NCBI RefSeq assembly: GCF_019168305.1
Contig: NZ_JAHTBI010000045.1
Location: 1-64,000, forward strand
From: Pseudomonas aegrilactucae
GTDB taxonomy: Bacteria; Pseudomonadota; Gammaproteobacteria; Pseudomonadales; Pseudomonadaceae
DNA: 64,000 nt
Direction: 5' to 3'
Positions 7,686 through 54,485 of this stretch are shown here, piece by piece. A program made the translations under genes and the position numbers. Every line of letters begins with the position of its first letter. The stretch's first letter is position 1. The notes under the pieces were generated by a model. That model did no database searches and was not told where the DNA came from. It worked only from the letters and a program-made list of their open reading frames with translations.

Positions 7686-7730
7686 AAACACTCCATTACG
7701 GGGCGCGACCACGTGGCCGCGCCACCGGGA

Positions 7731-9962: not shown

Positions 9963-9974
9963 TAAACGTGCTCC

Positions 9975-10763: not shown

Positions 10764-10782
10764 AGCGCCCCCGTGGCGTACC

Positions 10783-11157: not shown

Positions 11158-11192
11158 GTCTTTGTTCAATTAGACCTCCAAGCAGTCTTTAA

Positions 11193-11212
11193 CGCGTTCA
11201 GCGCTGAACGCG
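11193..11212. repeat. 20-bp perfect palindrome between fliA and cheY
   Basis: CGCGTTCAGCGCTGAACGCG reads the same on both strands. It lies 51 bases after the fliA stop and about 35 bases before cheY. With no spacer at the centre it is a poor RNA hairpin unless the central bases form the loop, and only a weak TTAAAG tract follows. It may be a transcription-factor operator or an mRNA stabilising or attenuating stem. Confidence 0.7.
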
Positions 11213-11262
11213 CATTCAATCAATTCGGGCACTACATTTTCACGACTGCATCGAACGGCTGC

Positions 11263-40247: not shown

Positions 40248-41189
40248 TCAGTCCTGACGCTCGATGATCGCCGAGCCCCACGACAGCCCCACACCGAAAC
40301 CACTCAGCGCCACACGCTTGTGGCTGGAGCCGAGCACGTGCCTTTCAAGCAGCAACGGAATGCTCGAGGACACCGTATTGCCCGTCTCGACCATGTCCTT
40401 GACGAACTTCTCGGCCGTCTCGGACTTGTCTTCCTCGAACCGCCGTGCCACCGCATCGACGATCGCCGCGCTGCCCTGGTGAATGCAGAACAGGTCGATG
40501 TCGTCCGCGCCCAGTCTGCTCGCCTCAAGCAGTTGACGCAGGTGCGCCGGCACCTTGAGCAACGCGAAGTTGAACACCTGGCGGCCGTTCATGAAGAACA
40601 CCCCGTCGCTCACCTTCAAGTGCTCCGCGCCACCACCGTCGGTGCCGAAACTGGATTTACCGAGTTGCCAGGCTGCCCCCTCGCCCATCCAGGTGGCCGT
40701 CGCGGCGTCACCGAACAGCATGGTGGTATTGCGGTCTTCGGGATCGACGATCTTCGAATAGGGGTCGGCGGTGATCAGCAGGCCGTTTTTCAACCCCGCC
40801 GCCTCCATGAAGCCTTTCATGGCATAGATGCCATAGACGTAGCCGGAGCAGCCCAGCGAGATATCGAACGCCGCCACGTGGGTGGGCAGGCCCAGTTTGT
40901 GCTGCACGATCGCTGCGGTATGCGGCAGGCCTTCGGCATCGCCGTTCTGGGTGACGACGATCAACGCATCGATCGATTCGAGGGACAACGAAGGATTGGC
41001 AGCAAACAGGGCCTTGGCGGCCTCTACACACAAGTCCGAGGTTTCCTGGCCTGCATCCTTGCGCGGCAGAAAGGTCGAGCCGATCTTGCCCAGAATGAAA
41101 TCCTGATCCTTGCCGAATTTCGCACCCTGGGCGTAGTTGTTCAAACCCTCGACAGGTACGTAACTCGCGATACTTTTGATGCCAATCAT
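40248..41189 (-). CDS. 3-oxoacyl-ACP synthase III (KAS III/FabH-like) of the flagellin glycosylation island
   Basis: 313 residues from the ATG at 41189, with GGAAG upstream. Thiolase-fold condensing enzyme with the Cys-His-Asn triad of the KAS III group: C114 (DISLGCSGYVYG), H237 (IHQGS) and N271 (ETGNTVSSSIP), plus the C-terminal GFGVGLSWGSA glycine loop. In P. syringae a similar gene (orf3) beside the flagellin glycosyltransferase genes is needed for full glycosylation, probably by supplying the acyl part of a modified 4-amino sugar. The same role is inferred here from position. A housekeeping FabH role is less likely. A sigma-70-like promoter lies at 41326-41298. Confidence 0.88.
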   Translation of the reverse strand: MIGIKSIASYVPVEGLNNYAQGAKFGKDQDFILGKIGSTFLPRKDAGQETSDLCVEAAKALFAANPSLSLESIDALIVVTQNGDAEGLPHTAAIVQHKLGLPTHVAAFDISLGCSGYVYGIYAMKGFMEAAGLKNGLLITADPYSKIVDPEDRNTTMLFGDAATATWMGEGAAWQLGKSSFGTDGGGAEHLKVSDGVFFMNGRQVFNFALLKVPAHLRQLLEASRLGADDIDLFCIHQGSAAIVDAVARRFEEDKSETAEKFVKDMVETGNTVSSSIPLLLERHVLGSSHKRVALSGFGVGLSWGSAIIERQD

Positions 41190-41297
41190 TGTGGCTTCCC
41201 GATAGATATGCGGATTTTCACGGGCACTCACCCCCTTGCAGGCAAGGGATCTCACGCAGCGCCGCTTCTGGCCACCTGCACCGCCCGCTGATTCATT

Positions 41298-41326
41298 AGC
41301 TTAGAGATGCACGTTTCGACTGCCAA
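41298..41326 (-). promoter_or_regulatory. Possible sigma-70 promoter for the KAS III gene
   Basis: On the minus strand -35 TTGGCA (41326-41321), 17-base spacer, -10 TAAGCT (41303-41298). It is followed by a 7-bp inverted repeat CCCTTGC/GCAAGGG near 41228-41244 in the leader. Confidence 0.5.
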
Positions 41327-41396
41327 GTCACGGCATTGTACGCGAAGCCGAGCGATGCTTGTGCACAGCACCTCACAGTCAGCGGCAGAACGGCCA

Positions 41397-41414
41397 GGCC
41401 GGGAGTACCCGGCC
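41397..41414 (-). terminator. Hairpin after the 1193-residue glycosyltransferase gene
   Basis: GGCCGGG-TACT-CCCGGCC, a 7-bp perfect stem 14 bases after the gene's stop. No T-run follows, so it may only stabilise the transcript end. Confidence 0.45.
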
Positions 41415-41428
41415 GCCCTGCCCCTCAC

Positions 41429-44400
41429 TCAGCGCGCCAGCCAGGCCTTGTGCCACAGCGCCAGGCGCTCACCCTCCAGCAACCAGTCGCGGCGCACGCT
41501 GGTTTGCAACAGTTCACCCAGGCTGCCCGAGGCCTGCGCATCACCCAGGTGCATGCGGATCGCCGCTACCCAGTCGGCCGTGGTGTTTGCCACGCGGGTC
41601 AGCGCCAGCACATCGACGCCGGCAAAGCCGGCCACCTTGCTGCAAATCACCGGATAGCCGCAGGCCGCATACTCCAGCAGGCGCACGCTGCCCGAGCACG
41701 CATTGACCAGGCTCTCGACCATGGGCGCCAGTGCCAGGTCCAGGTTCAAAGCCGCCAGCGCCGAAGCATGGCGCTCCGGCGCCACGCTGGCATGGCGCTG
41801 CGTCACATACGGCCAGAGCGCTTGCGGACAGTCCCCCAGCACCACCCACTCCACCTCGTTGGCCAGCAGCGGAACGACCTCAAGCAGCAAGTCCGCATCC
41901 ACCGGCCCCGCCCACCCCACTCTCGGTTTTGCCCCCATCTGGCGCGTGCCTTGCACATTGCGCCAGGCTTCAGCCGGCAGACCGCTCTCGAGCACCTGGA
42001 TATCCTCATGCTGGCCCGCCAGCACTTCAGCCAGCGCCGAGGTGGGCACAAGCACCCGATCGACCTGAATCAAACCCTGATGCAGGCGCGCAATGATCTC
42101 GTCGCTGCCGTAATGCCCCTGGACACCTGGCATCCGTGGCAGGTAGCCGTCCAGGTCATAGACCTTGAACGCCTGCGAAAACGCGCGCATTCGGCGCATG
42201 CCTTGAAGCTGCGCGTCATCGAGCGGACGCTGCAGCAGGACCGTATCAGGTGCGTAGCGCTGCGTCTCTACCACCGACATCAGGTTCGGCGTAACCAGCC
42301 CTTCGACCAGGCCGGCTTCGCGCAAGGCCTTGAACGGCTGGATCACACGGGTATGACCGGCATCCCGCTGGTCGGCCGGGTAGGCCAGCACCCTGTGCAG
42401 CGGATGCCAGCTTTGCAACGGGTTCCAGACCACGGCATTGCTCGCCTTGGCAAAGCCGCCCGGCACCTGCAACGACAGGTTGGCGTTGTATGAAGGATCG
42501 CGGGCCAGCTTCGGCAGCCAGCGCGCATACAGCGCGTCTTCTTCCTGGGCCGTCACTGGCGCCAGTTCAGGCGCATCCTTGAGCAGTTGCACGTGCGGCG
42601 TCCACACGTTCAGGTAACCGGCCTCGTGCAACCTCAGGCACAGATCGACATCGACCCAGCGCGCCAGCAACGGGTCTTCGGCAAAGCCACCGGCTTCCAG
42701 AAACAGCGCCCGGCGCAGCATCAGGCATTCACCGCTGAGCGCTGCGTAGTTCTGATCGACCTGCAACCGTCCAAGGTAGCCCGCCTCACGGTGATCGAGC
42801 CCTTCGAACGCACGCCCTACCAGGCCGCCCAGGCCGAGCACCAGGCCGGCGTGGCGGATCTTGCCCTCGGCCGTCAGCAGTTTGGCCCCCACCGCCCCCA
42901 CTTCGGGACGCTGCGCGTGGTTGAGCAGTTGCTGCAACCAGCCCGCCGCAAGCACACCTGCGGTTGCATCCAGCCACAGCACGAACTCGCCACGGGCCTG
43001 CTGCACGGCATGGTTGCACAGTGCAACGCGCGACTGGCCGGGCGCGTAACGCAGCACCTGCAACTGGTCCCCGCCGATCTGCTCGACACCCGCCAGCCAC
43101 TCGCGTACGGCTTCATCCTGCGTGGCCGGGTCGAGCAACAGTACCTCATAGCCGCCGGCCAGGTCGGTGTTCTGCAGCACGCTGTCGACACAGCGCTGGA
43201 ACTGCCCGAGGCTGCCTTCCAGGGGGATCAGGATGCTGACCGACGGCGCATTGGCATGGCCATAGTCCACGCGATAGCTCCCAGGCAGCGCGGCCTGCGG
43301 CAGCATCTGTGCCTGGGCATAGCCACGAGCCTGCAAGTGGCCCTTGATGACCGCACGCTCATCGGCGCACTCGCTCAGGCGCAGGCTGTCGCCGATCAAC
43401 AGCGGCTCACTGACATGCCCGACGCAGCCAAGCCCCTGCTGCTCGATCAGGCGCAGCTGGTACTCGAGCTCGAAGGCACTGCCGCCAGCAGCGTCGAAGC
43501 CGCCCATCTGCTGCAGGGCCTGACGATTGAACAACCAGTGGCGCGACAGGCCGGCAGGGAAGCTGACCAGCAGGTCGAGGTTCAAGTCCGGACGCAATGC
43601 CACGTCGATGCCGCCATTGCCCATGCGCATCGCTTCATCGGCATACACCGCCAGGTACCCCGGCGGCGCGGCCAGCAGCTCCAATGCCGCCACCATCAGG
43701 CCGCTGGCAGTGAATTCCACGCCAGCCTGCACGATCACCCACCAGTCGCACTGGCCGTCGCCGAGCAGGTCATTGAGCACCTGCGTGCGTTGCGACGCCG
43801 TGCACGGTACATGCTGCACGCGCGGCTCGTTCAAGGTGGCGGGAAGCGGCTCGGTACCCAGCACGCGAACCTGTACACGCGAATACAGGCAGCGCTCCTG
43901 CCCCAGGCTTTGCAGGGTAGTGGCCAGCAACTGGCGATCGCCCCCTTCCTCGAGCACCAGCACGCCGAAAATCGGGGCCTGCGGGCTGCTCAGGCGCTCG
44001 CGGATGAGTTGCAGTTGAGGGGCGTCAGGGTAGCGCTCGCGCAGCCAGGACAGCACGCCGAGCTTCGCGTCAGCCGCCTCCTGCGCGGCAGCGGCCTGGG
44101 TCTTGGCGATGAAGGTGTCCAACTGGTCCCAGAACGACAGGGTGGCCACCACGTAGCGCTCGCGCATTCCTTCCAGCCCGGCCTTCGCGCTGGCAATTGC
44201 ATCCGGCTGGTCGAACAGCGCAAACCCCGCACTGCCCATGAAACTGGTTTCAAGAAACGGCTGGTCGACCGCCGCCCCCGGCATGAAGACCACCGGGCAG
44301 CCGCAGAGTACCGCCATCACGCAGGTCATCGACCATTCATAGGTGTACATCACCTCGGCCGAGCGCAGCACCTGCGCCAGTGCATCCAACGCCAGTGCAT

Positions 44401-45010
44401 CGGCTACGCGCAGCAGGCGCACATCGTCAGGCAGCAGCCTGTAGTCGATGTGCTCCAGCGGGTAGCGGTTCTGGTACAGGTAGCTGCCATGCCTGGCCGC
44501 ACCCGGCGCTGGCGGCTGGAACAGGTCGATGTCGATCACCGGCAGGCGCAGCAGGTCCGGGTTGGCATGACCGCGCTTTTCGGCCAGAGACGGGCCGTAG
44601 TAGAACAGCAGGTCACTGGGTGCCGCCTCCATCGACTTGCCGTTCAGAAAGCCCTCGAAGTTGAGCAGAAAGCGCGAGACCACCTTGCGCCCCAACGGGT
44701 TGCCGATCACCACTTCCGGGTACACCGCAATCGCCACCTTGCCTTGCTGCTGGTGGCGTTTTTCGGTGGCTTCGTCGAGCAACGGGGTCTTCAGGTTCGG
44801 GTTGAGCACCTTGGCGCCGCACAGGTACGCCTCGCGCCCGCTCAGGTTGAGCAGGTGACACAGGTAATGCAGCGACACGATGCCCGACGAGGTCTCGCGG
44901 TAGTCAGGGGCCAGAATGTAATAAGGGTGTTCCGGCTTGGTAAACATCAGGTTGTGGCGAAACATCGCCCGTTCAAGCACCTGCGCGTCGACCTGCGAGG
45001 CGTTCGACAT
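41429..45010 (-). CDS. Multi-domain glycosyltransferase (GT-B + two GT2 + GT-B), 1193 residues
   Basis: Four glycosyltransferase-like modules. About 25-330: a GT-B-like unit (YYILAPDYRETSSGIVSLHY, VMAVLCGCPVVFMPGAAVDQ). About 345-580: a GT2-like unit with YADEAM and RPDLNLDLL, apparently weak. About 595-830: a fuller GT2 unit with SVSILIPLEGS, LWLDATAG and DVDLCLRLHEAG. About 870-1193: a GT4-like GT-B unit (KPRVGWAG, VRLLEYAACGYPVICSK). The last three modules are homologous to those of the 1185-residue protein at 49271. No signal peptide or membrane helix. It lies 37 bases after the aminotransferase gene and three genes before fliC, fitting a cytoplasmic flagellin glycosyltransferase like Fgt proteins of P. 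syringae. Donor and acceptor are unknown. Confidence 0.85.
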   Translation of the reverse strand: MSNASQVDAQVLERAMFRHNLMFTKPEHPYYILAPDYRETSSGIVSLHYLCHLLNLSGREAYLCGAKVLNPNLKTPLLDEATEKRHQQQGKVAIAVYPEVVIGNPLGRKVVSRFLLNFEGFLNGKSMEAAPSDLLFYYGPSLAEKRGHANPDLLRLPVIDIDLFQPPAPGAARHGSYLYQNRYPLEHIDYRLLPDDVRLLRVADALALDALAQVLRSAEVMYTYEWSMTCVMAVLCGCPVVFMPGAAVDQPFLETSFMGSAGFALFDQPDAIASAKAGLEGMRERYVVATLSFWDQLDTFIAKTQAAAAQEAADAKLGVLSWLRERYPDAPQLQLIRERLSSPQAPIFGVLVLEEGGDRQLLATTLQSLGQERCLYSRVQVRVLGTEPLPATLNEPRVQHVPCTASQRTQVLNDLLGDGQCDWWVIVQAGVEFTASGLMVAALELLAAPPGYLAVYADEAMRMGNGGIDVALRPDLNLDLLVSFPAGLSRHWLFNRQALQQMGGFDAAGGSAFELEYQLRLIEQQGLGCVGHVSEPLLIGDSLRLSECADERAVIKGHLQARGYAQAQMLPQAALPGSYRVDYGHANAPSVSILIPLEGSLGQFQRCVDSVLQNTDLAGGYEVLLLDPATQDEAVREWLAGVEQIGGDQLQVLRYAPGQSRVALCNHAVQQARGEFVLWLDATAGVLAAGWLQQLLNHAQRPEVGAVGAKLLTAEGKIRHAGLVLGLGGLVGRAFEGLDHREAGYLGRLQVDQNYAALSGECLMLRRALFLEAGGFAEDPLLARWVDVDLCLRLHEAGYLNVWTPHVQLLKDAPELAPVTAQEEDALYARWLPKLARDPSYNANLSLQVPGGFAKASNAVVWNPLQSWHPLHRVLAYPADQRDAGHTRVIQPFKALREAGLVEGLVTPNLMSVVETQRYAPDTVLLQRPLDDAQLQGMRRMRAFSQAFKVYDLDGYLPRMPGVQGHYGSDEIIARLHQGLIQVDRVLVPTSALAEVLAGQHEDIQVLESGLPAEAWRNVQGTRQMGAKPRVGWAGPVDADLLLEVVPLLANEVEWVVLGDCPQALWPYVTQRHASVAPERHASALAALNLDLALAPMVESLVNACSGSVRLLEYAACGYPVICSKVAGFAGVDVLALTRVANTTADWVAAIRMHLGDAQASGSLGELLQTSVRRDWLLEGERLALWHKAWLAR

Positions 45011-45047
45011 GCTAAGACTCCAGACTCAAATTAGTGGCAGTGACGGC

Positions 45048-46211
45048 TCAGCCGATGGCGCTCGGGCGCTCGGCCTGGAAAAAACGTGCAATACACGCAC
45101 TCACATGCGCGACCTGGCGGCTGCGCATGTCGGAAAACAACGGCAGGCGCAGCAAGCGCTGCGCCACGTCCACCGTGATCGGCAGCTCACCACTGCTGCG
45201 CGAGTAGCGCAGGCCCGCCGGCGAATCGTGCAGCGGCACGTAGTGGAACACGGCATGTACGCCGTGCTCGCGCAGGAAGTTGATCAACGCCGTGCGCTGT
45301 TCGGCACTGCGCATCATCAGGTAGAAGATATGCGCGTTGGCCGGCTTGTCGTCGGGGGTGCGCGGTAGCTGGAACAGGCCATCGGCGGCCAGCGGGCGCA
45401 GCAGATTGAAGTATTTTTCGTACAGGGTTCGGCGGTGCTTGTTGATGCGCTCGCCGTGCTCCAGCTGCGCATACAGGAACGCAGCGGTCAGTTCGCTGGG
45501 CAGGAACGAGGAACCGACATCCACCCAGGTGTACTTGCTCACCTCGCCACGGGCGAACGCCTTGCGGTTGGTGCCCTTCTGCCAGATGATCTCGGCGCGC
45601 TCGATCAGCCGCGGGTCGTTGATCAGCAACGCCCCGCCCTCACCACTGATGACATTCTTGGTTTCGTGAAAACTCAGGCAGCCCATGTGGCCGATGGTGC
45701 CCAGCGCACGTTTTTTATCGCGTGCCAGGATCGCCTGCGCGGCATCCTCGATCAGGAACAACCCATGCTTGTCGCAGATGCGCGCCAACGCCTCCATGTC
45801 ACACGGCTGGCCGGCGTAATGCACGGCCACCACTGCCTTGGTCTTCGGCGTGATGGCGGCCTCGACCAGCCGCTCGTCCAGATTCAGCGTGTCATCGCGG
45901 ATATCCACGAACACCGGCACCGCGCCCCGCAGCACAAACGCATTGGCGGTGGAGACGAAGGTGAACGAGGGCATGATGACCTCATCCCCCGGCCCGACAT
46001 CGGCCAGGATCGCGGCCATTTCCAGCGCGGCCGTACACGAATGTGTGAGCAGCGCCTTGTCACACCCCAGGTTGCTTTCCAGCCACCCCTGGCACAATGC
46101 GGTGAACTGGCCGTCCCCGGCAATCGAGCCGTTCATCACCGCCTGGGCGATATAGAACAGCTCCTTGCCGACCACGAACGGCTTGTTGAACGGGATAGCC
46201 TGCTTGCTCAC
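45048..46211 (-). CDS. dTDP-4-amino-4,6-dideoxyhexose aminotransferase (WecE/VioA-like)
   Basis: 387 residues from the GTG at 46211 (GGAG eight bases upstream); the usual WecE start MxxxAIPFNKPFVVG follows. DegT/DnrJ/EryC1 aminotransferase fold with PLP lysine K185 (SFHETKN), the IEDAAQ motif near 154-159 and PSFTFVSTANAFVLRGA. The close match to the E. coli WecE pattern suggests transfer of an amino group to dTDP-4-keto-6-deoxyhexose. The product could be a 4-amino-4,6-dideoxygalactose or, as in P. syringae VioA, viosamine; sequence alone does not decide. It probably provides a sugar nucleotide for flagellin glycans. It precedes the 1193-residue glycosyltransferase. Confidence 0.9.
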   Translation of the reverse strand: MSKQAIPFNKPFVVGKELFYIAQAVMNGSIAGDGQFTALCQGWLESNLGCDKALLTHSCTAALEMAAILADVGPGDEVIMPSFTFVSTANAFVLRGAVPVFVDIRDDTLNLDERLVEAAITPKTKAVVAVHYAGQPCDMEALARICDKHGLFLIEDAAQAILARDKKRALGTIGHMGCLSFHETKNVISGEGGALLINDPRLIERAEIIWQKGTNRKAFARGEVSKYTWVDVGSSFLPSELTAAFLYAQLEHGERINKHRRTLYEKYFNLLRPLAADGLFQLPRTPDDKPANAHIFYLMMRSAEQRTALINFLREHGVHAVFHYVPLHDSPAGLRYSRSSGELPITVDVAQRLLRLPLFSDMRSRQVAHVSACIARFFQAERPSAIG

Positions 46212-46253
46212 GATAAGGTCTCCAATTGCCCACGCGGTCTGCACGGGCAAGAT

Positions 46254-46282
46254 CAGTCAGGTTCAGGCACCGTCACTGTCAA
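46254..46282 (-). promoter_or_regulatory. Weak sigma-70 promoter candidate for the aminotransferase operon
   Basis: A perfect -35 hexamer TTGACA (46282-46277) with a 17-base spacer to a poor -10 (TGACTG, 46259-46254). It lies in the 218-base gap downstream of a strong terminator, so some promoter is required here. Confidence 0.3.
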
Positions 46283-46385
46283 TAATCCGCCGTACTCCGG
46301 CATGATCCTGACGCATCGACGCGTTGCCCTGCGGCGCCTGCGGCCGGCCCAGGCCATCGCCACCGCGCGCCCGTACGCCGAGCGC

Positions 46386-46414
46386 AAAAAAGCCGGGTAT
46401 GAAACCCGGCTTTT
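46386..46414 (-). terminator. Rho-independent terminator after the 927-residue glycosyltransferase gene
   Basis: AAAAGCCGGGT, short loop, ACCCGGCTTTTTT: an 11-bp stem including the A/T flanks, with six T residues on the minus strand. It lies 16 bases after the stop at 46430 and splits the glycosylation island into two transcription units. Confidence 0.92.
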
Positions 46415-46429
46415 GCAAATCCCGCGCCA

Positions 46430-49213
46430 TCAGCTCAATTCGTCGAGCCACTCCAGCACAGGGGAACCGCCAGCGGCGACCGAGCGTGAAACATCCACAC
46501 CGAAGCGGTCATCGACCCGCCCACGGCTGCTGAAGGCGCCCGGCCAACGCGCCGCCAGCGCCTGGCACTCGGCAGCACCGAGCACCGGCACCTGCTGGCT
46601 GAACAGTTGCGCCTGCGGCGCCCAGATCACCAGCAGGCCGACTTCGGCGGCCTTCAGGCACAGCTCGATGTCCGCACCGGCGAAGGGTTGCAGGCCATCG
46701 CACTGTTCGAACAGCGCCTTGCGCACCATCAGGCAATCGGACGACACCGCCGCACAGCTGCGCACCACGCTCGACCACAGCGAGCCCTTGCCCGATTGCG
46801 CCGACAGCCCCAGCCATGGCGCCTGCACCCGCGGGCCCGCCAGCAACTCGTAACCGGCATGGCTGATGGCAGCCTGGCGATCCACCAGACGTGCACCCAC
46901 CACACCGACTTCAGGGCGCTGCGCCTGGTTGAGCAAGGCCTCGATCCAGGCCGGCGTCACCACCTGGCAACGGCTGGACAGCACCACCAGGTATTCGCCG
47001 CTGGCATTGGCCGCTGCCAGGTTGAACAACTGCGAAGGCGACTCGACCTGCGCGCCGGCCAGCAGCTTGAGGCGTGCGCCGAACCCTTGCAGGGCCTGGG
47101 CAGCGGCTTCGGCCTGGGTGTCGCGGCACGCCACCAGCACTTCGTACCGCGGGTAACGGGTACGTTGCAGCACACTCGCCAGGCACACCTTGAGGTCTTG
47201 GAGGTCGTCTTCGGCGGCGATCAGGATGCTCACCAGCGGGGTGGACTGGTGACGGAAGTCGATCTGCAGCTGGCCCTCCCCCGCGTCACCGACCTGGCCG
47301 CGATAGCCGAGTACCGACAGGTGACGATTGAGCGTAGCCAGTGCGTCCTCGGCCATGGCGGCACGCCCTTGCTGGCCGATGACCAGGTACTCGTCCATAT
47401 GCGCCAGGCAGTTCAGGCCGTTCTGCTCGACCAGGCGCAGCAGCAGGTCGAATTCCACCGCCTGCGGATAGGTTTCGCTGTAGCCACCCAGCTCGACGAC
47501 CGCTTCGCGGCGCACCAGCCAGTGCCTGGACATCAGGTCGGGACGGCTGCGCAGCAGGTCCAGGTTACCCCCCTGACGCACCACGCTGATCAGGCGCCCC
47601 TCACTGTCACGCTGCACTTCGTTGGCGCTGATCGCCAGGCAGCCAGGGGCCCCTTGCAACTCGACCTGCAAACGCAGCACGCCGCCGCGGGTCAGTACAT
47701 CGCCGGCCTGCATCAGCAGCAGCCATTCACTGGGCAGTTGACGCACTACCTGGTTCAGGTGCGACACCACGTTCGCCGGGGTGATCTGGATGAAGTGCAG
47801 GGTATCGCGTGCGGTGGTGATTGCCGGCAATTTTCCGGTCTTCAGCACCACCAGCTTGAAGTCGCGCAAACCGCTGGCCAGCAGGCTGTCAAAGGTGGCT
47901 TGCAGGCCGGCGGCGTCATCACTCAGGTCGGTGACCACAAATGCAATCTGCGCCACGCGCTGCTTGCCCAGGTGCGCAACGACGCGCTGCTGCGCAGCCG
48001 CATCAGGTGTGGCGGCGGCAATCGCTGCCTGCACCTGGCCCGATGCAGTGGCCTGCAGCCAACCGGCCAGATCGGCCTCTGGCGTAGACTCCAGGCGTGC
48101 CAGCCACGGCTGCAGTTCATTCACGAACGCTTCGTCGTCCGGGCCGACCAGCGTCGAGAGCAGACGACGACAGACCTCGAGGTTGAACAGGCTCAGGTCC
48201 AGGGCCTGCCAGTAGCGTGCACGCAGGGTCTGAACGGTATCGTTGGCGTGCTCCTGCAGCAGTTCGAACTGCTGTACCCAGGTGCCTTCGAGCGCATGCC
48301 GATGCGCCTTGCCCGCAGGCCAGGCGTGCACCAGGAACTCGATCGCGCCGAGTTGCTCGAACAGCGGCGCGTTGTAGTACGGCAGCTCGACGAACTGGCG
48401 CGGCTCGAAGCTGCGCTGCGGCTCATCGGTCATGCTGGCCCAGGTGGAGGTGAACAGCAGCGCAGCCTCGGTGCCGGCAGCAGTGCTGCGAACGAACTGG
48501 TCGAGCAGGGCAAAACCTTCGTCATCCGCACACAGATTGTGCTGATCGGCATCCCACTGACGCAGTACACGTGCGGTCTGGACCAATTGCTCGTCACGCT
48601 CCACCGGAGTGAGCGGGCTGGGTGCGTACTGCACCACGGCATCGGTCTGGTCCAGACGCTGGAGTGAGCCCTGGGCCAGCAGCCCATAGGACAGCGCGGC
48701 CAGCCAGGCATCGAAGCCCAGACCAGCCGGCAGCTTGCCCAGTACAGCTTGCAGCACCGGCACACGCACCACCGCGCGCCAGGCCGACTGCCCGGCGGCG
48801 GCGTACTGCCCGATGAGACTGCGTGCGTCGACGCCGGTCGCCGCGCCCAGGGCTGCGCCGATCTTGTGATACGCCACCACGCTGTTACCCGGGTTGTAAC
48901 CCAGCACATAGCCCTGGGCCATGTGGCACTGCGGGTGCGCACGCAGGTGAGCGGCGGCGGCCTCGAGGGCTTCAGCGCGCAAAAAGTCCGTGTCCAGGGC
49001 CAGGCTCACAAAAGGCGAGGCAACCTGCGCCAGCGCAGCCTGCACGCGTTGCGTGCACGCGTCACCCGAGGCCGGCACAACCGGCTCGAGGGCGACGAAG
49101 GCCAGCCCTTGCGCACGGTAGTACTGCGCGGCACGCTCACGATAACCGGGCTCTTCATGCCCCAGCAGGACGACCGTAACGTCGTTGCGCAACCCGATTG
49201 CGTTGTCAGCCAT
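46430..49213 (-). CDS. Multi-domain glycosyltransferase-like protein (TIGR00180-like + two GT2-like), 927 residues
   Basis: Starts at the ATG at 49213, with AGGTAGGTG just upstream. About 1-330: a module resembling TIGR00180-type glycosyltransferases (VTVVLLGHEEPGY, VSLALDTDFLR, AQGYVLGYNPGNSVVAYHKIG). About 330-420: helical. About 425-650 and 665-900: two GT2-like modules homologous to the middle modules of the flanking giant proteins. In both, the expected acidic metal site is altered: AISANEV in place of YxDE, and VVLSSRC in place of LLDAD. DIELCLKAAEVG is retained. No GT-B module. It lies 57 bases after the 1185-residue gene. The two GT2 modules may be structural, leaving the first as the catalytic one; this is inference. 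Confidence 0.8.
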   Translation of the reverse strand: MADNAIGLRNDVTVVLLGHEEPGYRERAAQYYRAQGLAFVALEPVVPASGDACTQRVQAALAQVASPFVSLALDTDFLRAEALEAAAAHLRAHPQCHMAQGYVLGYNPGNSVVAYHKIGAALGAATGVDARSLIGQYAAAGQSAWRAVVRVPVLQAVLGKLPAGLGFDAWLAALSYGLLAQGSLQRLDQTDAVVQYAPSPLTPVERDEQLVQTARVLRQWDADQHNLCADDEGFALLDQFVRSTAAGTEAALLFTSTWASMTDEPQRSFEPRQFVELPYYNAPLFEQLGAIEFLVHAWPAGKAHRHALEGTWVQQFELLQEHANDTVQTLRARYWQALDLSLFNLEVCRRLLSTLVGPDDEAFVNELQPWLARLESTPEADLAGWLQATASGQVQAAIAAATPDAAAQQRVVAHLGKQRVAQIAFVVTDLSDDAAGLQATFDSLLASGLRDFKLVVLKTGKLPAITTARDTLHFIQITPANVVSHLNQVVRQLPSEWLLLMQAGDVLTRGGVLRLQVELQGAPGCLAISANEVQRDSEGRLISVVRQGGNLDLLRSRPDLMSRHWLVRREAVVELGGYSETYPQAVEFDLLLRLVEQNGLNCLAHMDEYLVIGQQGRAAMAEDALATLNRHLSVLGYRGQVGDAGEGQLQIDFRHQSTPLVSILIAAEDDLQDLKVCLASVLQRTRYPRYEVLVACRDTQAEAAAQALQGFGARLKLLAGAQVESPSQLFNLAAANASGEYLVVLSSRCQVVTPAWIEALLNQAQRPEVGVVGARLVDRQAAISHAGYELLAGPRVQAPWLGLSAQSGKGSLWSSVVRSCAAVSSDCLMVRKALFEQCDGLQPFAGADIELCLKAAEVGLLVIWAPQAQLFSQQVPVLGAAECQALAARWPGAFSSRGRVDDRFGVDVSRSVAAGGSPVLEWLDELS

Positions 49214-49240
49214 AAAGCACCTACCTCTATTGTTGGATGC

Positions 49241-49264
49241 CCGGCCAGGCACTGCGCTGGCCGG
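49241..49264 (-). repeat. Hairpin between the 1185- and 927-residue glycosyltransferase genes
   Basis: CCGGCCAG, loop CGCAGTGC, CTGGCCGG on the minus strand: an 8-bp perfect stem placed seven bases after the upstream stop. There is no T-run, so it is more likely a stabiliser than a terminator. Confidence 0.55.
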
Positions 49265-49270
49265 TGAAGA

Positions 49271-52200
49271 TCAATCGGCCAACCAGCCGTTGGCCCATTG
49301 CTGCAGATTGTGTGTATTGAGTACGTAGTCGCGCAGCACCGTGGCGCGCAATGCGTCGCCCTGGCGGTAGCTTGCCTGCGGATCGGCCAGGTGCGCGCGA
49401 ATCGCCTCCAGCCACTGCTCGGTGGTATTGCTCGCCACCCGGGTACACGGCAGGTAGCCGGCGTAGGCCTTGGTGTCGGTACAAATGACCGGGAACCCGC
49501 ACGCACCGTATTCCAGCAGGCGCAGGTTGCTCTTGCAGTCGTTGAACAGGTTCTGCTCAAGCGGTGCCAGTGCCAGGTCGAGGTTGAGGCTGGCGAGTTT
49601 CTGCGGGTACAGGTGCAACGCCACACCGGCATGAAACTCCTTGATGTAGGGGCGCAGCAGGTCCGGGCACATGCCGAAGAATACCCAGTCGACCTCGTTG
49701 GCCAGGGTCTTGACCACCTCGGCCAGCAACTCCAGGTCGCCGCGGTGGCTGGTGCCGCCGGCCCAGCCGACACGTGGCCGTACCGAGGTCTGGCGCCTTC
49801 CCCGCAAGCCGCCCCACAACGCGCCAGACAACATGTTCGGAACCACGCGAATATCGTGGTGCAGGCTGGACAACGCATCGGCCAGCGGCTCGGTCGACAC
49901 CACCACGCGATCGCACAGGGCAATGCCGCGGCCGACCATTTCGCGCATGTTGCTCGGCATGTTGCGCCGGTGTTCGTTCTTTTCCGGCACATCGATGATG
50001 TAGTCATCGATCTCGTAGATGCGGCGCGCCGAGCAGAAGCGCTTGATGCGAGCCATCTCTTCGATGGAGCCTGTGGTGTAGCGGCACTGCAGGATGATCA
50101 CATCCGGCTTGCGGCGCTCCATCTCCACCAGGTTTGGCAACACATAGTTCAACTGCCCCTGAATCCAGCCGGCACGCTCCAGCTCCTTGAAGGGGTGACT
50201 GACGCGATAATGGCCCACGGCAGTGGTGTTGACCGGCAAGGCCATGACGAAGGGCAACACCGGCCGAATGAACGGCGCCCACCCTTCACGCAGGCCCGGC
50301 TCCAGATTGAAGCTGGTCATGCGCAGGCTGAGGTTGTGGTTGTACGCCGGGTCATTGGCCACCTGGGCCAGCCAGCGGCTGTAGAAGTTGTCCTGCTGCC
50401 GGTCATCGACCACCGGTGTGCTCACCCGCGTCTGCGCCACAACCGCATAAGGGGTCCAGACGACCAGGTAACCCTGATCGCGAACCCGCAGGCACAGGTC
50501 GGCATCGCCGAACGCGGTCGGGAACAGCTCGCCATCAAGCCCGCCGACCTCATCGAACAGTTCGCGGCGCACCAGCAGGCAATCACCACTGACGGCACTG
50601 TAGTTCTGCACGCATGCCAGCCGGTTCATGTAGCCATTGGCATCGGCCGGCTGGCCGAAGAACGGGCTGCTGGCCAGGCCGTGCAAGCCCAGCACCAGAC
50701 CTGCGCCAACCACATTGCCTGCCCTGCTGCACAGCTTGGGCCCGACAACCCCCACCTCCGGACGCTGCGCCTGGCGCACCAGCTCATCCAGCCATTGCGC
50801 ATCGAAGCACACGCACCCGGCATCGAGCAGCAGCAGATAGCTGCCCCGCGCCTGCAGGCTGGCCTGGTTGTACAGCAGCGGACCATGCGGTGCGGCCACC
50901 TGTACGATCCTCAACTGATCGCTGCCCAGCCCGTGCATCGCGGCAAGCCACCCTTGCACCTCTGCTGACTCGTCACCATTGGTGACCACCAGGATTTCGT
51001 AGTTGCCGTAGGCGGTGTGCTCGAACACAGACTCGACACAGGCCATCAACGCCGTCACGTCCCGGCCCGCCGCGAGCAGGATCGACACGGCGGGCGTCTC
51101 GGCGTGCTGGTAAAGCACGCGGGAGAACATCGTGCCCTCGGCGCTCTGTACCTGGGCCTCAACGCCCAGTCGATCCAGGTGCGCGCGCAGCACCCGAGGC
51201 GCCTGCAGTGCACAGCTCGGGTCAAGCTGCCAGGTGCTGTAGCCATGGCGGCATTGCACCAGCAGTTCGGCAATATGCTCGACGGCGCCCAGGCCGTGCT
51301 GCTCGACCAGCCGCCAGAGCATGTCTTGCGGAGCCAGCACCTCGAACTGCGGGTCGAAGCCGCCCTGCTCGCGCACCCGCGAACACTCGAACGCAAGCAG
51401 ACGCCCGAGGTAGGGCGCACTGCGCATCAGGTCGAGGTTGAAGTCCGGTTTCAAGATCGGCTGGCTCGGCACCAGGTTGTCGTTGGTGCCTTCATCGAAG
51501 TACAGACACGCGCAGCCGGTGCGCAACGCCATGCGCTCGGCCATGATCACCAGGGCATGCGGGTGCAGACAGTCGCCTGCGCGCAGCAGCAGCACCCACT
51601 CCCCCGCCTGGCTGCGCGCGATGCAGGCATTGATCTGTTCGATCGCATTGCCGTGTGCAACCACATGCTCAACCGTCGCAGGGGGCAACGGCTGGCCAGC
51701 AGGGCCCAGCACGCAGATACGCGCCGCCTCATACGACTGCTGTTCGAGGCTGTCCAGCGTGGCCTTGAGCGCCGACGCATCGCCCTCGGGGCTCGCCACC
51801 AGCACGAGAATGCGCGGGCGCAGCGGCCATTGCGCGATCCGCTTGGGCAGCAGGTTCACCTGCGCCGCCGACAGGGCGCGACAACTCAGCCACTCGCTGT
51901 ACAACTCGGCGAAACTCAGGCTGCCGGTGCCGACCTGCTGCTGGAACCCGGCGACCTGGCGTGCGTGCAGGCGCGTCATCTCCAGCTCTTCCCAGGCCTT
52001 GTCCGGGCCGGGGGTGTAGTGTTCGAGCGGCACATGGCGAACCCAGCCACTGGCCGGTGCCGGCTCGCTGGTACGCGAGGCCAGCATCTGGCGCAGCCAC
52101 TCGGTTTCGCGGGTGAACGCCAGGGTCATGCTGGTGTGGTGGCTCAGGCGCCCGGCATGCACCCGCTCCAGGCTGAGCATGGTGTTCAGGTACGCCAGGT

Positions 52201-52828
52201 GCCCGCGGCGCAACAGGCAGATGAACAAGGCCTCGACCAGGCGCGCACGAAAGCCTTCGCCTTCCTGCACCAACTGCGGCAGGAACTCCTGCACCTGGGT
52301 ACGGCGCAGCAGTGCATGGCTGATCCCGCCGAACAGGTTCGGCAGATTGCTCTCCAGCGCCTCCAGCAAGTCACCGCCGTTGACCACCGCACTGGTGGGC
52401 GAAATCATGCAGTTGGCCGCGCGCATCGGCAGCAAGGTCTCGTCCGCCGCGCAGATCAGACGGTGATGCACCACCACGTTCACGTCCGGGCACTCGAGCA
52501 TCACCGGCACCAATTGGCCGATGCAGTCTTCGACCAGCCAGTCGTCATCGCACAGGAACTTGATGAACGTGCCACGTGCCTGTTCGAGACACATCAGTAC
52601 GTTGCGCGAAAAACCCAGCGTGGCGGGGTTGCGAACATACCGCAGCTCGCACTTGGCCTGCGCCGCCCACAGGTCGAAAACGCCCTTGACCTCGTCGCCC
52701 TGGCTGTCATCGCACACGATCACTTCGATGTTGGCGTAACGCTGGGAGATCGCACTGTGCAGTGCGCGGCTGAGGTATTCGGGGTTGAACGCGGGGATGG
52801 CGATGCTGACGAGCGGCAGTTCGTTCAT
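49271..52828 (-). CDS. Multi-domain glycosyltransferase (three GT2 + one GT-B), 1185 residues
   Basis: Starts at the ATG at 52828 (MNELPLVSIAIPAFN). About 1-250: a canonical GT2 domain with CDDS at 39-42 and the DDDW motif at 94-97. About 340-570: a second GT2-like unit (YFDEGT, KPDFNLDLMRS). About 590-830: a third with PAVSILLAAG, LLLDAGCV and DADLCLRVRDQG. About 865-1185: a GT4-like GT-B unit (RPRVGWAGGTSHRGD, NLRLLEYGACGFPVICTD). No signal peptide or membrane helix. Modules 2-4 are homologous to those of the 1193-residue protein, pointing to duplication and swapping of the first domain. As first gene after flgL and part of an island ending at fliC, it is a likely flagellin glycosyltransferase. 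Upstream hairpins may control its expression. Confidence 0.85.
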   Translation of the reverse strand: MNELPLVSIAIPAFNPEYLSRALHSAISQRYANIEVIVCDDSQGDEVKGVFDLWAAQAKCELRYVRNPATLGFSRNVLMCLEQARGTFIKFLCDDDWLVEDCIGQLVPVMLECPDVNVVVHHRLICAADETLLPMRAANCMISPTSAVVNGGDLLEALESNLPNLFGGISHALLRRTQVQEFLPQLVQEGEGFRARLVEALFICLLRRGHLAYLNTMLSLERVHAGRLSHHTSMTLAFTRETEWLRQMLASRTSEPAPASGWVRHVPLEHYTPGPDKAWEELEMTRLHARQVAGFQQQVGTGSLSFAELYSEWLSCRALSAAQVNLLPKRIAQWPLRPRILVLVASPEGDASALKATLDSLEQQSYEAARICVLGPAGQPLPPATVEHVVAHGNAIEQINACIARSQAGEWVLLLRAGDCLHPHALVIMAERMALRTGCACLYFDEGTNDNLVPSQPILKPDFNLDLMRSAPYLGRLLAFECSRVREQGGFDPQFEVLAPQDMLWRLVEQHGLGAVEHIAELLVQCRHGYSTWQLDPSCALQAPRVLRAHLDRLGVEAQVQSAEGTMFSRVLYQHAETPAVSILLAAGRDVTALMACVESVFEHTAYGNYEILVVTNGDESAEVQGWLAAMHGLGSDQLRIVQVAAPHGPLLYNQASLQARGSYLLLLDAGCVCFDAQWLDELVRQAQRPEVGVVGPKLCSRAGNVVGAGLVLGLHGLASSPFFGQPADANGYMNRLACVQNYSAVSGDCLLVRRELFDEVGGLDGELFPTAFGDADLCLRVRDQGYLVVWTPYAVVAQTRVSTPVVDDRQQDNFYSRWLAQVANDPAYNHNLSLRMTSFNLEPGLREGWAPFIRPVLPFVMALPVNTTAVGHYRVSHPFKELERAGWIQGQLNYVLPNLVEMERRKPDVIILQCRYTTGSIEEMARIKRFCSARRIYEIDDYIIDVPEKNEHRRNMPSNMREMVGRGIALCDRVVVSTEPLADALSSLHHDIRVVPNMLSGALWGGLRGRRQTSVRPRVGWAGGTSHRGDLELLAEVVKTLANEVDWVFFGMCPDLLRPYIKEFHAGVALHLYPQKLASLNLDLALAPLEQNLFNDCKSNLRLLEYGACGFPVICTDTKAYAGYLPCTRVASNTTEQWLEAIRAHLADPQASYRQGDALRATVLRDYVLNTHNLQQWANGWLAD

Positions 52829-52901: not shown

Positions 52902-54485
52902 TCAGAGGCGGTTGAACAAGCCGAGCCCGGCCAGCTTGCTGAACGCCAGTTGCGAGGCTTGCAGCATGTTCTGCTGCAGGTTCAGGCGGATGAGCACCTC
53001 GGCCGAATCGGCGTTGCGAATCGAGCTCTGGGTGACGGTGTTGGCCGACTGCAACGCCTCGTTGGTTTCGGCCTGCACATCCAGCGCGGCGCCACGGCCA
53101 CCGATGGAGCTGATCGCCTCCGACACCTTGTCGGCGCCACTGGCCAGGTTGCCGATTGCCGAATCCAGCGACGCCAGAAAGTTGCGTCGGGCTGCAGGGT
53201 CGTTGTCCACAGGCGTTTTCAGTGCTGTACGCAACTGATGGATGGTATCGAGCACGTTCTGGTTCTGGTGGTTGTTGACCTGAACCGAATACTGGTCGCC
53301 ATCCTTGGGGGTACCGCTGAACGTGAAGTCGACGCCTGCTACACGGTTCGGGGACACGGTGGTGTCACCGCTGCCCACCGGGCGGCTGTCAGCGGTCATC
53401 GGCTGTGCGTAGACATCGAACGTGGTGTCGCTGGTGAACTTGACGATCGCGCCACCACCGGGGAAGGCCGCGTCATACTTGGCCTTGTCGGCGATAGACA
53501 GACCGCTGAGCTGACCGTCGGGCGACACGTTGCCCGGGCTGCGCGTGCCTGTGATCTCGTCCGGCTTTGAGCCGAGTGTGAACGTGTGCCCCCTGACGGC
53601 GTTGTCCGCAGCAGTCTGGTCGGTCACCTCATTGCCCTGCAGCCCCACCTCCATGCGAATGTCGACGCCACGGAAACTGACAATGGTGTTGGTGCCCTTC
53701 GGATCGAAGGTACCGCCATGGGTGGCTTCCAGGGTGCGGTCGACGTTGTTGGCGTCGGTGATCTTGAACTGCGTGCTGCTGGTGAACTCGATCGTGTACG
53801 GCTCGCCGCTGCGGAACGCGTCATTGTAGGTCGAGCTGGCAGACACCTGGCCGTTGGACAGGTTCACGCGCACATCGCCCGGCGCAGTCGGGGCGGTCAT
53901 CGAGGTCTGGCTGCGGCTGGTGTTGAGCGCTTGCTGGAACACGCTGTAGCCGCTTTCGTTGGTTGCCACGCTGAGCATGTCGCCAACCTGCAGGTCAGTG
54001 GTGCTCTGGTCGCCCTTGTACGAGTAGGTGCCGTCGGCATTGCGCTCGAAGGGCTGAGTGTCGCCACGCGAACCAGAGAAGATGTACTTGCCGTTTTCGT
54101 CACGGCTGTTCATCAGGCTGTACAACTGCTCTTCGAGCTGGGAAAGCTCCTGCTCGTTGGCCTTGCGGTCATTGTCGGTCATGCCCGCGTTACCCGAGCT
54201 GATCGCCAGTTCCTTTACCCGCGACAGCACGTTGGTAATGCTGTTGAGGGTGGCCTCGGAGGTGCCCAGGCTGGAGCGTGCGCTGGCGATGTTGCCGCTG
54301 AACTGGTTGATCATGTTGCTCTGCTGTTCCAGTTGCAGCAGGCGCGCGGCGCCGACCGGATCGTCTGCCGCGGTACGCACGCGCAGCATGTCGCTGGCCT
54401 GCTGCTGCGACTCCACGGCCTTGGCGAAGTTGCTCTGGTAGTTGGAAGTGCTGGTCTGGAAGAACTGGGCAGTAGAAATGCGCAC
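52902..54485 (-). CDS. flgL: FlgL, hook-filament junction protein 3
   Basis: 527 residues, starting with GTG at 54485 (GGAG nine bases upstream). Flagellin-like N-terminal (MRISTAQFFQTSTSNYQSNF) and C-terminal (about 440-527) helices, with a long variable centre (about 140-430). The enlarged centre makes it longer than the roughly 300-residue enteric FlgL but is usual for the P. putida group. It joins hook and filament with FlgK. It lies 13 bases after flgK. Confidence 0.96.
   Translation of the reverse strand: MRISTAQFFQTSTSNYQSNFAKAVESQQQASDMLRVRTAADDPVGAARLLQLEQQSNMINQFSGNIASARSSLGTSEATLNSITNVLSRVKELAISSGNAGMTDNDRKANEQELSQLEEQLYSLMNSRDENGKYIFSGSRGDTQPFERNADGTYSYKGDQSTTDLQVGDMLSVATNESGYSVFQQALNTSRSQTSMTAPTAPGDVRVNLSNGQVSASSTYNDAFRSGEPYTIEFTSSTQFKITDANNVDRTLEATHGGTFDPKGTNTIVSFRGVDIRMEVGLQGNEVTDQTAADNAVRGHTFTLGSKPDEITGTRSPGNVSPDGQLSGLSIADKAKYDAAFPGGGAIVKFTSDTTFDVYAQPMTADSRPVGSGDTTVSPNRVAGVDFTFSGTPKDGDQYSVQVNNHQNQNVLDTIHQLRTALKTPVDNDPAARRNFLASLDSAIGNLASGADKVSEAISSIGGRGAALDVQAETNEALQSANTVTQSSIRNADSAEVLIRLNLQQNMLQASQLAFSKLAGLGLFNRL

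Follow-up and report, generated by a model that had tools for sequence, protein, structure and literature searches.

Organization of the island between flgL and fliC

Three giant glycosyltransferases lie between flgL and fliC in Pseudomonas aegrilactucae, and the question they raise is which glycan they would build on flagellin and how many of their modules add a sugar. In the window, by which we mean the whole analysed stretch of 64,000 nucleotides, proteins of 1185, 927 and 1193 residues (GTa, GTb and GTc), a sugar aminotransferase (AT) and a KAS III enzyme were all located between these two genes (Table 1), and the open reading frames agree with the inventory given by the first-pass annotation, as does the domain content apart from two N-terminal modules. 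The giant frames are not chance ones, because orthologs were found at identities of 49–83% for GTa (14 orthologs), 47–76% for GTb and 54–73% for GTc, the latter two ranges being those of the best matches listed. Order, size and domain content place giant fgt1 and fgt2 and a KAS III gene in the flgL–fliC interval, and the island belongs, as a variant, to the flagellin glycosylation islands already known from Pseudomonas; position, size and order likewise support its earlier assignment to the fgt1-fgt2-orf3 type of P. syringae, orf3 (KAS III) presumably holding the same place between flgL and fliC in pv. tabaci. The view that this island surpasses that of P. syringae in giants and in modularity was not upheld: VioT is a third giant there, among 298 Pseudomonas genomes sampled, at least 29 have a full-length third giant no more than 25 kb from the Fgt2 homologue (the genus-wide GTb and GTc counts are lower bounds, taken among the matches listed), and related open frames reach 1429–2061 aa in other genomes. 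That a third giant is exclusive to this strain was ruled out by the same count. Two features look new, namely the DXD-poor tandem core common to the giants and the splitting of the putative terminal-sugar genes between the island and the contig carrying rmlBADC. The hairpin 3' of GTb gave a z of -3.83, with 0 of 200 shuffles as good (positions 46375–46435), and was absent from the list of a terminator consensus scan.

Table 1. Features of the flagellin glycosylation island and its borders (positions in the window).
Feature	Description	Position	Strand	Basis
flgL	upstream island border	52902..54485	minus	family search
GTa	Fgt1-like giant glycosyltransferase, 1185 aa from ATG; GT2 (M1), GT2-like without DXD (M2), GT2-like with DXD rare (M3), GT-B-like (M4)	49271..52828	minus	Pfam, profile comparison, orthologs
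GTa M1	canonical GT2 with FLCDDD	52079..52828	minus	Pfam, PDB, motif count
GTa M2-M3	common GT2-like tandem core	50369..51841	minus	profile comparison, motif count
GTa M4	GT-B-like module	49274..50278	minus	Pfam, ortholog alignment
GTb	Fgt2-like giant, 927 aa from ATG; M1 (D-x-D-F, weakly GT2-like), middle without family, M2, M3	46430..49213	minus	Pfam, profile comparison
GTb M1		48608..49195	minus	family search, profile comparison, motif count
GTb M2-M3	common core	46553..47965	minus	profile comparison, motif count
Hairpin	intrinsic-terminator-like, 3' of GTb, separating fgt1-fgt2 from the AT-GTc pair	46386..46414	minus	shuffle test
AT	WecE/VioA-type dTDP-4-keto-6-deoxyglucose aminotransferase, 387 aa from GTG	45048..46211	minus	PRK11706, TIGR02379
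GTc	third giant, 1193 aa; M1 (no family match), M2, M3, M4	41429..45010	minus	Pfam, profile comparison, orthologs
GTc M1	N-terminal module with invariant PYY, YR, YPE, GNP, CGC motifs	44006..44953	minus	ortholog alignment
GTc M2-M3	common core	42536..43993	minus	profile comparison, motif count
GTc M4	GT-B-like, homologous to GTa M4 but relaxed	41432..42433	minus	profile comparison, motif count
KAS III	KAS III-like (orf3), 313 aa	40248..41189	minus	family search, motifs
fliC	flagellin, presumed acceptor, 282 aa	39093..39941	minus	family search

Modular structure of the three giants

Pfam Glycos_transf_2 matched all three giants above its cut-off, at 96.4 bits in GTa, 33.1 in GTb and 33.5 in GTc, and the GT-B-type matches at the C-termini of GTa and GTc were weak, around or below cut-off. 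Profile comparison of the ortholog modules revealed that M2 (99.7–100% probability) and M3 (100%) are common to GTa, GTb and GTc and that the GT-B-like M4 is common to GTa and GTc (100%). The earlier count of three or four glycosyltransferase modules per giant stands for M2 and M3 throughout, for M4 in GTa and GTc and for the GT2 module M1 of GTa; it fails for GTb M1, which is weakly GT2-like, and for GTc M1, which has no family match. The giants are predicted to be cytoplasmic, the one basis of this being a hydropathy scan (maximum 19-residue mean of 1.68 for GTa, 1.43 for GTb and 2.12 for GTc), and no TPR family was among their Pfam matches at E 0.1.

In GTa, M1 carries DDD in 14/14 orthologs and has a chondroitin synthase as its best PDB match (E 9e-15), chondroitin synthase being a two-domain bifunctional glycosyltransferase, and M4 shows the highest share of invariant columns (46%) of the twelve segments measured. 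Both are strongly conserved; conservation is lower in M2 and M3, which have DXD in 0/14 and 2/14 orthologs, one Asp of the M3 motif being retained in 12/14. GTb M1 has DXD in 26 of 31 orthologs and is weakly GT2-like (TIGR04440 at 32 bits for a cut-off of 70; 34% by hhalign against GTa M1), a PDB profile search with the N-terminal part gave no convincing match, and DXD was found in 0/31 for both M2 and M3. M1 is the least conserved part of GTb (2% invariant columns, mean pairwise identity 0.37) and M2 the most conserved (15%, 0.57). GTc appears VioT/OrfN-like by its size (1193 vs 1173 residues), its partner and its architecture only. For its M1 (residues 20–335), none of 26 members gave a Pfam match at E 0.01, a PDB profile search found nothing convincing (best E 0.28) and profile comparison showed no relation to the other giant modules (at most 3% probability); this M1 tops the GTc modules in invariant columns, not in mean identity (0.50 vs 0.52 for M3). 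DXD occurs in 0/28 sequences for M2 and 4/28 for M3 of GTc, one Asp of the M3 motif is retained in 25/28, and the motif glutamate position of M4 holds Glu in 13, Gln in 14 and Arg in 1 of the 28. Structure predictions were of low confidence for GTa (mean pLDDT 40.5, six sequences) and for GTc M1 (33.2, two sequences).

Over the three giants DXD is present in 0/73 M2 and 6/73 M3 modules, and it is therefore unlikely that every module adds a sugar, which disfavours that part of the stepwise multi-sugar chain proposed in the first-pass annotation. An acidic residue is retained in M2 where the base could sit, and a missing DXD is no proof that a GT-A module is dead. Cap-less P. syringae mutants carry two to four deoxyhexoses on flagellin, according to the accessible text of PMC3927599, so that between them Fgt1 and Fgt2 can attach more than two; these mutants and the two strongly conserved modules of GTa indicate that a single giant may add more than one sugar, the part of the earlier proposal that survives. 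The same two observations would also suit giants that are each truly multi-catalytic, with several modules adding sugars in turn, as would the several glycosyltransferase folds per chain, the chondroitin synthase match, the good conservation of GTb M2 and the lone GT2 of Clostridioides difficile type B, which the accessible literature credits with two rhamnoses; set against the DXD counts and the lower conservation of M2 and M3 in GTa, this arrangement is unlikely. We favour live modules at the ends of the giants, where GTa M1 and/or M4, GTb M1 and GTc M1 would be catalytic, and an M2-M3 core without metal motif that probably holds the acceptor. Counting against live ends and a silent core are the conservation minimum at M1 and maximum at M2 in GTb, the second rank of GTc M1 in mean identity, the single Asp kept in most M3 modules of GTa and GTc, the acidic residue retained in M2 and the missing family match of GTc M1.

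A second locus with rmlBADC

The rmlC gene was matched once in the genome, and together with rmlA, rmlB and rmlD it adjoins genes for a WbqC-like protein, an SDR, an ATP-grasp protein and a phosphoesterase on another contig. AT and GTc make up a cassette whose partner genes adjoin rmlBADC there, which the first-pass annotation had missed, and these four partners likely finish the terminal amino sugar. The ATP-grasp protein of this genome matches ATPgrasp_Ter (50 bits, cut-off 29), and the homologue in locus L079 scores 208 bits against NF009402 'carbamoyl phosphate synthase-like', below the cut-off of 218. The WbqC match of this genome crosses a stop just upstream of the ORF start used.

Homologues of the four genes sit with GTc, a methyltransferase and AT in 6 of the first 20 loci (L070, L075, L078, L079, L081, L082). 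The complete cassette stands directly before FlgF/FlgG-type genes in L079, a layout repeated in L081 and L082, judged by gene size and flgJ-flgK-flgL or flgJ-flgK; in other loci, for instance L071–L074 and L077, GTc is found between Fgt2 and KAS III/fliC. P. palmensis (G226) has the same split layout as our genome, and G127 carries WbqC-MT-SDR-ATPgrasp-PPase-AT-rmlBADC on one contig and, on a second, GTc placed between fgt2 and KAS III/fliC with no AT. For the methyltransferase of the type II cassette, the search of our own genome gave a best match of 25% (E 4e-5), and none was found in the island.

The ATP-grasp gene was detected in 13 of 298 genomes, namely in 12 of the 17 with a close full-length GTc vs 1 of the 281 others (G230, which has the ATP-grasp cassette and no close GTc), an association with a Fisher p of 1e-16 that is not corrected for kinship and overstates independence because the genomes are related. 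The GTc class (n = 17) comprises full-length matches at 54% identity or more and leaves out 21 full-length matches at 47% or less and matches without M1 (e.g., G078, 53%, residues 315–1191 only); the ATP-grasp class (n = 13) comprises matches at 62% or more, with three at 41–48% left out (G076, G028, G280) and one split over two frames (G290) counted as present. AT (E 1e-60 or better) occurs in 17/17 genomes with close GTc vs 7/21 other genomes searched. Five of the 17 are without the ATP-grasp gene; four of these (L071, L073, L074, L076) have WbqC, a methyltransferase, a 255-aa protein, a DAO-type oxidase and AT instead, and the fifth (G096) has AT alone, adjoining neither rml nor ATP-grasp.

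Genes of the rmlBADC and WbqC types occur in O-antigen loci too, and AT-GTc with the rml-linked genes might act in the synthesis of LPS O-antigen, or of some other surface polysaccharide, leaving only GTa, GTb and KAS III to flagellin, an assignment that the position of the donor genes outside the flagellar island and the terminator-like hairpin between AT-GTc and GTa-GTb would suit. It is quite improbable in view of the recurrent proximity of full-length GTc to Fgt2 homologues, the GTc genes placed between Fgt2 and KAS III/fliC, the cassettes beside flagellar genes in L079, L081 and L082, and the modules that GTc has in common with GTa (M2, M3, M4) and with GTb (M2, M3); moreover, family searches found no wzx, wzy or ligase among the five island genes.

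Aminotransferase, KAS III and flagellin

AT matches PRK11706 at 587 bits (cut-off 375) and TIGR02379 at 550 bits (cut-off 434.85), and its frame extends upstream to a TTG at 46250; it is VioA-type at the family level, at which the matches cannot separate VioA (Qui4N) from WecE (Fuc4N) specificity. KAS III carries the motifs GCSG, HQG and GNT, whose Cys, His and Asn we take to be the FabH-type triad, and is 82–94% identical to copies adjoining fliC in other loci. Since it also adjoins fliC in G272 (locus L122), a genome in which no AT was found, KAS III has no fixed link with the amino sugar, and on that ground a role as the source of its acyl chain was rejected. In G127, G096 and G010, KAS III is kept in a flgL–fliC interval without AT, which lies elsewhere in the genome.

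An alternative cap is the one of P. syringae, plain viosamine or mVio; the KAS III of the island would then serve as VioS, and general fatty acid synthesis would provide the acyl chain. This would fit the WecE/VioA type of AT and the presence of the KAS III gene, and it has a slender chance of being right: genes of the vioB, vioR and acp kind were found neither in the island nor in the rml locus, KAS III persists in the AT-less G272, the ATP-grasp gene is what tracks GTc, and unacylated viosamine is not transferred by P. syringae VioT, per the accessible text of PMC3927599. A simple motif check yielded no ACP-like small ORF in the island gaps, and no P. syringae-type viosamine island was recognised in 15 further loci by gene sizes and reference-set matches. 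Because the vioS-vioB-vioR-acp route is absent from the island and the rml locus, the orf3-type KAS III aside, the island was not classed as a viosamine island.

The P. syringae flagellin is printed as A2–Q282 with glycosites at 143, 164, 176, 183, 193 and 201 (PMC3927599, accessible part), and FliC has Ser/Thr at all six numbers (S143, T164, T176, S183, S193, T201) if ungapped 282-residue numbering is assumed, weak evidence because 20 of the 75 residues 136–210 are Ser/Thr.

Proposed pathway

The best explanation, which we hold to be probable, is a short flagellin O-glycan with a rhamnose stem from GTa and GTb, a cap from GTc and a donor pathway split over two loci. It is favoured by the likeness to the P. 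syringae island in position, order and sizes, by the length and Ser/Thr residues of FliC, by the association of the ATP-grasp gene and AT with GTc and by the ATP-grasp gene of the C. difficile type B glycan; the five close-GTc genomes without the ATP-grasp gene, the cassette of G230 and the lack of the type II methyltransferase in our genome count against it. What we observe is gene content and order, homologies, lost motifs and co-occurrence, and from these we infer the catalytic steps, acceptor, sugar identities and order of addition as follows. RmlA and RmlB, encoded on the second contig, would produce dTDP-4-keto-6-deoxyglucose, whose amination at position 4 would fall to the island AT; the four rml-linked proteins (WbqC-like, SDR, ATP-grasp ligase, phosphoesterase) would make an acyl or aminoacyl group and join it to the amine. 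The glycan would be built on flagellin in the cytoplasm prior to export: the first deoxyhexose, a rhamnose donated by dTDP-Rha, is most likely placed by GTa on Ser/Thr in the central part of FliC, GTb would then lengthen the stem, and GTc would add the modified 4-amino-4,6-dideoxyhexose. The best reading of the glycan that the genes suggest is thus a stem of deoxyhexose (rhamnose) with an amide-modified 4-amino-4,6-dideoxyhexose as its cap.

Comparison with known systems

As far as the accessible literature describes it, the a-type island of P. aeruginosa PAK, presumably also located at flgL–fliC, includes orfB, C, D, E and G as viosamine-gene homologues, whereas most donor genes lie elsewhere here and are of another kind. 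It resembles the present island in its VioA-like OrfA and VioT-like giant OrfN within orfA–orfN (Table 1 of PMC3927599). The island of P. syringae pv. tabaci is alike in fgt1-fgt2-KAS III at flgL–fliC, giant glycosyltransferases, a 282-residue flagellin and a VioA-like aminotransferase with a giant of about 1170 residues. In the accessible text of PMC3927599, the giants of P. syringae are Fgt1, Fgt2 and the 1173-residue VioT (40% identical to PAK OrfN), VioT being placed in a separate viosamine island of vioA, vioM, vioT, vioS, vioB, vioR and acp, and the mVio increment is 537 minus two deoxyhexoses of 146. Here, unlike in that account, AT and the third giant lie within the flagellar island, vioB, vioR, acp and a close methyltransferase were not seen in the genes covered, and the acyl group would probably be joined by the ATP-grasp ligase encoded beside rmlBADC.

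The b-type FgtA (PA1091) of P. aeruginosa PAO1 is similarly a GT2-bearing transferase, one being required for the flagellin deoxyhexose; unlike the giants here it also carries a phosphotransferase, and the PAO1 cap is a phospho-linked N,N-dimethylthreonine (PMC11833859, accessible part). C. difficile type B (CDR20291_0244-0247 and rml genes) is alike by description in its rhamnose stem, sugar aminotransferase and ATP-grasp gene, the latter carbamoyl-phosphate-synthetase-like and required for the terminal peptidyl-amido sugar on GlcNAc-Rha-Rha; it differs in separate GT1, GT2 and GT3, GlcNAc as the first sugar, a sulfonated peptidyl-amido cap and a FemAB-like acyltransferase (PMC5207246, accessible part). 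Caulobacter FlmG, as the accessible text of PMC7591256 presents it, is a flagellin glycosyltransferase whose acceptor-binding and catalytic parts are apart, as proposed here, with a TPR domain binding the acceptor, whereas the holder proposed here is the GT2-like tandem.

A more general proposal would combine a common non-catalytic platform, a GT2-like tandem that has lost its metal site and holds flagellin, with swappable catalytic ends (GT2, GT-B, GTc N-terminal module) and a cap in which the ATP-grasp ligase has linked an acid to 4-amino-4,6-dideoxyhexose; taken whole it is possible yet doubtful. Such an acid-joined sugar was not found named as a Pseudomonas flagellin sugar in the accessible text of our literature search. 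Pseudomonad flagellin glycans bear on recognition by plant immune receptors. They also affect virulence, motility and adhesion (PMC3927599, PMC12915359, accessible parts). The giants have posed the puzzle of why one sugar step needs 900–1200 residues, which a DXD-less core with swappable ends makes testable, and the rml-linked ATP-grasp set predicts the cap sugar, so that genomes could then show which strains should carry the cap.

Layout of the flagellin glycosylation island

The sizes given in the first-pass annotation for the three giant glycosyltransferases were exact when ATG starts were used, and its placement of them with an aminotransferase (AT, of WecE/VioA type) and a KAS III enzyme between flgL and fliC was confirmed: on the minus strand, the order from flgL to fliC is GTa (Fgt1-like, 1185 aa), GTb (Fgt2-like, 927 aa), AT, GTc (the third giant, 1193 aa) and KAS III. 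The island itself belongs to a known kind. The closest named match within Pseudomonas, the genus of the window, is P. palmensis BBB001 (GTb 76% identical), and the contig with this match also carries GTa (82%), GTc (73%), AT (92%), KAS III (94%) and FliC (93%). A hairpin with a T tail (z -3.83) lies 3' of GTb, and is absent from the output of a consensus terminator scan. FliC has Ser/Thr at 6/6 P. syringae glycosite numbers, an agreement that is weakly supportive, since Ser/Thr occupy 20 of the 75 positions from 136 to 210.

The interval between flgL and fliC looks like a replacement hot spot around Fgt1 and KAS III. KAS III is found beside fliC in other loci with 82-94% identity, and is present in G272, where AT was not found. 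Other frames follow the Fgt1-like gene at the expected Fgt2 place in two genomes (G073, G045; L130 and L129 in the table).

Module architecture of the giant glycosyltransferases

Ortholog alignments of 14 GTa, 31 GTb and 28 GTc sequences (near-duplicates dropped, the window's own counted) were used to compare the modules, numbered M1 to M4 from the N-terminus, by profile. The GT2-like M2 (99.7-100%) and M3 (100%) are common to all three giants, the GT-B-like M4 is common to GTa and GTc (100%), and M2 and M3 are distant GT2-like relatives (up to 96.8%). M1 is a plain GT2 in GTa, is weakly GT2-like in GTb, and in GTc matched nothing compared. D.D or DD near the position of the metal motif (DXD) was observed in M1 of 14/14 GTa and 26/31 GTb, in M2 of 0/14 GTa, 0/31 GTb and 0/28 GTc, and in M3 of 2/14 GTa, 0/31 GTb and 4/28 GTc; M3 of GTa and GTc mostly retains one Asp, plus a conserved D-L-C-L motif. 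Invariant columns were by far most frequent in M4 of GTa (46%, with 18-26% in M1-M3); in GTc the N-terminal module was highest (14.6%) and M4 lowest (6.6%), its motif glutamate being retained in only 13/28. From the DXD counts and the module conservation of GTa and GTc, the giants may be read as live ends on a putatively non-catalytic core. Against this reading, the DXD-bearing M1 of GTb has the fewest invariant columns (2.0%) and its M2 the most (15.0%), and mean pairwise identity in GTc (M1 0.495, M3 0.523, M4 0.496) does not single out M1. The conserved core could be the acceptor-binding part.

Distribution and partners of GTc

Full-length GTc was detected in at least 38 of the 298 sampled Pseudomonas genomes, at least 29 of which have it within 25 kb of a GTb homologue. 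Its partners differ among the 20 loci read, which come from 19 genomes (L079 and L080 are two pieces of one genome); the type II set of L079 immediately precedes FlgF/FlgG-type genes. Open frames of 1429-2061 residues with a GTc-like M2-M3-M4 part, larger fusions than that of the window, occur at L088, where the frame adjoins fliC, and in G217, G025, G109, G014 and others. GTc-like giants at L117, L119 and L123 stand beside distant homologues of AT (30-31%), WbqC (30-31%) and the methyltransferase (34%), with 185-aa and further ORFs, a gene set that probably serves another cap sugar.

Loci and features around GTc, the flgL-fliC interval and the rml genes
Locus	Coordinates	Feature
L071, L073, L074, L076		Type I set: WbqC, methyltransferase, 255-aa protein, DAO-type oxidase, AT
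L070, L075, L078		Type II set: WbqC, methyltransferase, SDR, ATP-grasp, metallophosphoesterase, AT; after fgt2
L079, L081, L082		Type II set, flgJ side
L072, L077		GTc without local AT
L083-L087		GTc with other partner sets
L088	3801-9890	Giant of 2029 aa
L069 (P. palmensis)		GTc with AT alone, as in the window
L130	11505-12449	314-aa ORF
L129	8633-12103	Inverted 1156-aa giant
L092	4245-5822	Cache-type gene
L104	15678-17251	Cache-type gene
L105	3315-4489	Cache-type gene
L106 (G230)	7518-12354	Type II-like cassette: AT, phosphoesterase, ATP-grasp, SDR, methyltransferase

With the ATP-grasp class set at ≥62% identity and close full-length GTc at ≥54% (next full-length match 47%), ATP-grasp was present in 13/298 genomes, close GTc in 17/298 and both in 12, leaving ATP-grasp in 1/281 genomes without close GTc (Fisher p 1e-16, kinship among genomes ignored). 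By match coordinates, the two lie <2 kb apart in 9 of the 12 shared genomes and are split in 3. Close GTc occurs without ATP-grasp in five genomes, namely the four type I genomes and G096, whose AT (L132) adjoins neither rml nor ATP-grasp. The AT search covered the close-GTc genomes (17/17 positive) and 21 others (7 positive). G230 is the sole ATP-grasp genome without close GTc.

The rml-linked cluster

A query with the type I partner proteins retrieved a WbqC homologue in the window's genome, ~5 kb from rmlC. On this other contig (C57, L092), the minus-strand order is WbqC, SDR, ATP-grasp, metallophosphoesterase, rmlB, rmlA, rmlC and rmlD, with the SDR, ATP-grasp and phosphoesterase 59-74% identical to their type II counterparts. 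The same cluster is found in P. palmensis (L104, 75-97% identical), and G127 (L105) has WbqC, methyltransferase, SDR, ATP-grasp, phosphoesterase, AT and rmlBADC, its GTc being located in the flagellar island without AT there. In all three, the cluster is flanked on one side by a gene for a class-III aminotransferase and on the other by a gene with a Cache domain. The latter, which follows rmlD, resembles a Cache-domain sensor; it may be decaying, since no kinase domain was found by Pfam in the ORF of the window's genome and the match is split into two overlapping pieces in P. palmensis and G127.

Proposed pathway

Based on enzyme families and published comparisons, the most likely working scheme is one in which RmlABCD would make dTDP-rhamnose as the donor for GTa and GTb, AT would aminate the RmlA/B product, the ATP-grasp ligase and WbqC-like protein would join an acid to the amine, and GTc would transfer the resulting cap, a proposed terminal 4-amino-4,6-dideoxyhexose with an amide-linked group. 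The scheme assigns no step to the KAS III enzyme of the island. According to published reports, in P. syringae deletion of fgt1 gives non-glycosylated and deletion of fgt2 partially glycosylated flagellin (PMC12915359), and rhamnose-only glycans remain after deletion of vioA, vioB or vioT (PMC3927599); in C. difficile type B, the amidated sugar that terminates a rhamnose stem requires an ATP-grasp gene (PMC5207246), and a flagellin modification operon of Shewanella also includes one (PMC3765264). Among the titles and abstract openings listed in searches of the open literature, with full texts covered in part, none described a DXD-less shared core or a split ATP-grasp cap route. The apparently new features are a core that the giants have in common and that lacks the metal motif, a proposed cap route by way of ATP-grasp, and the division of this route over two loci, the flagellar island and the rml-linked cluster.
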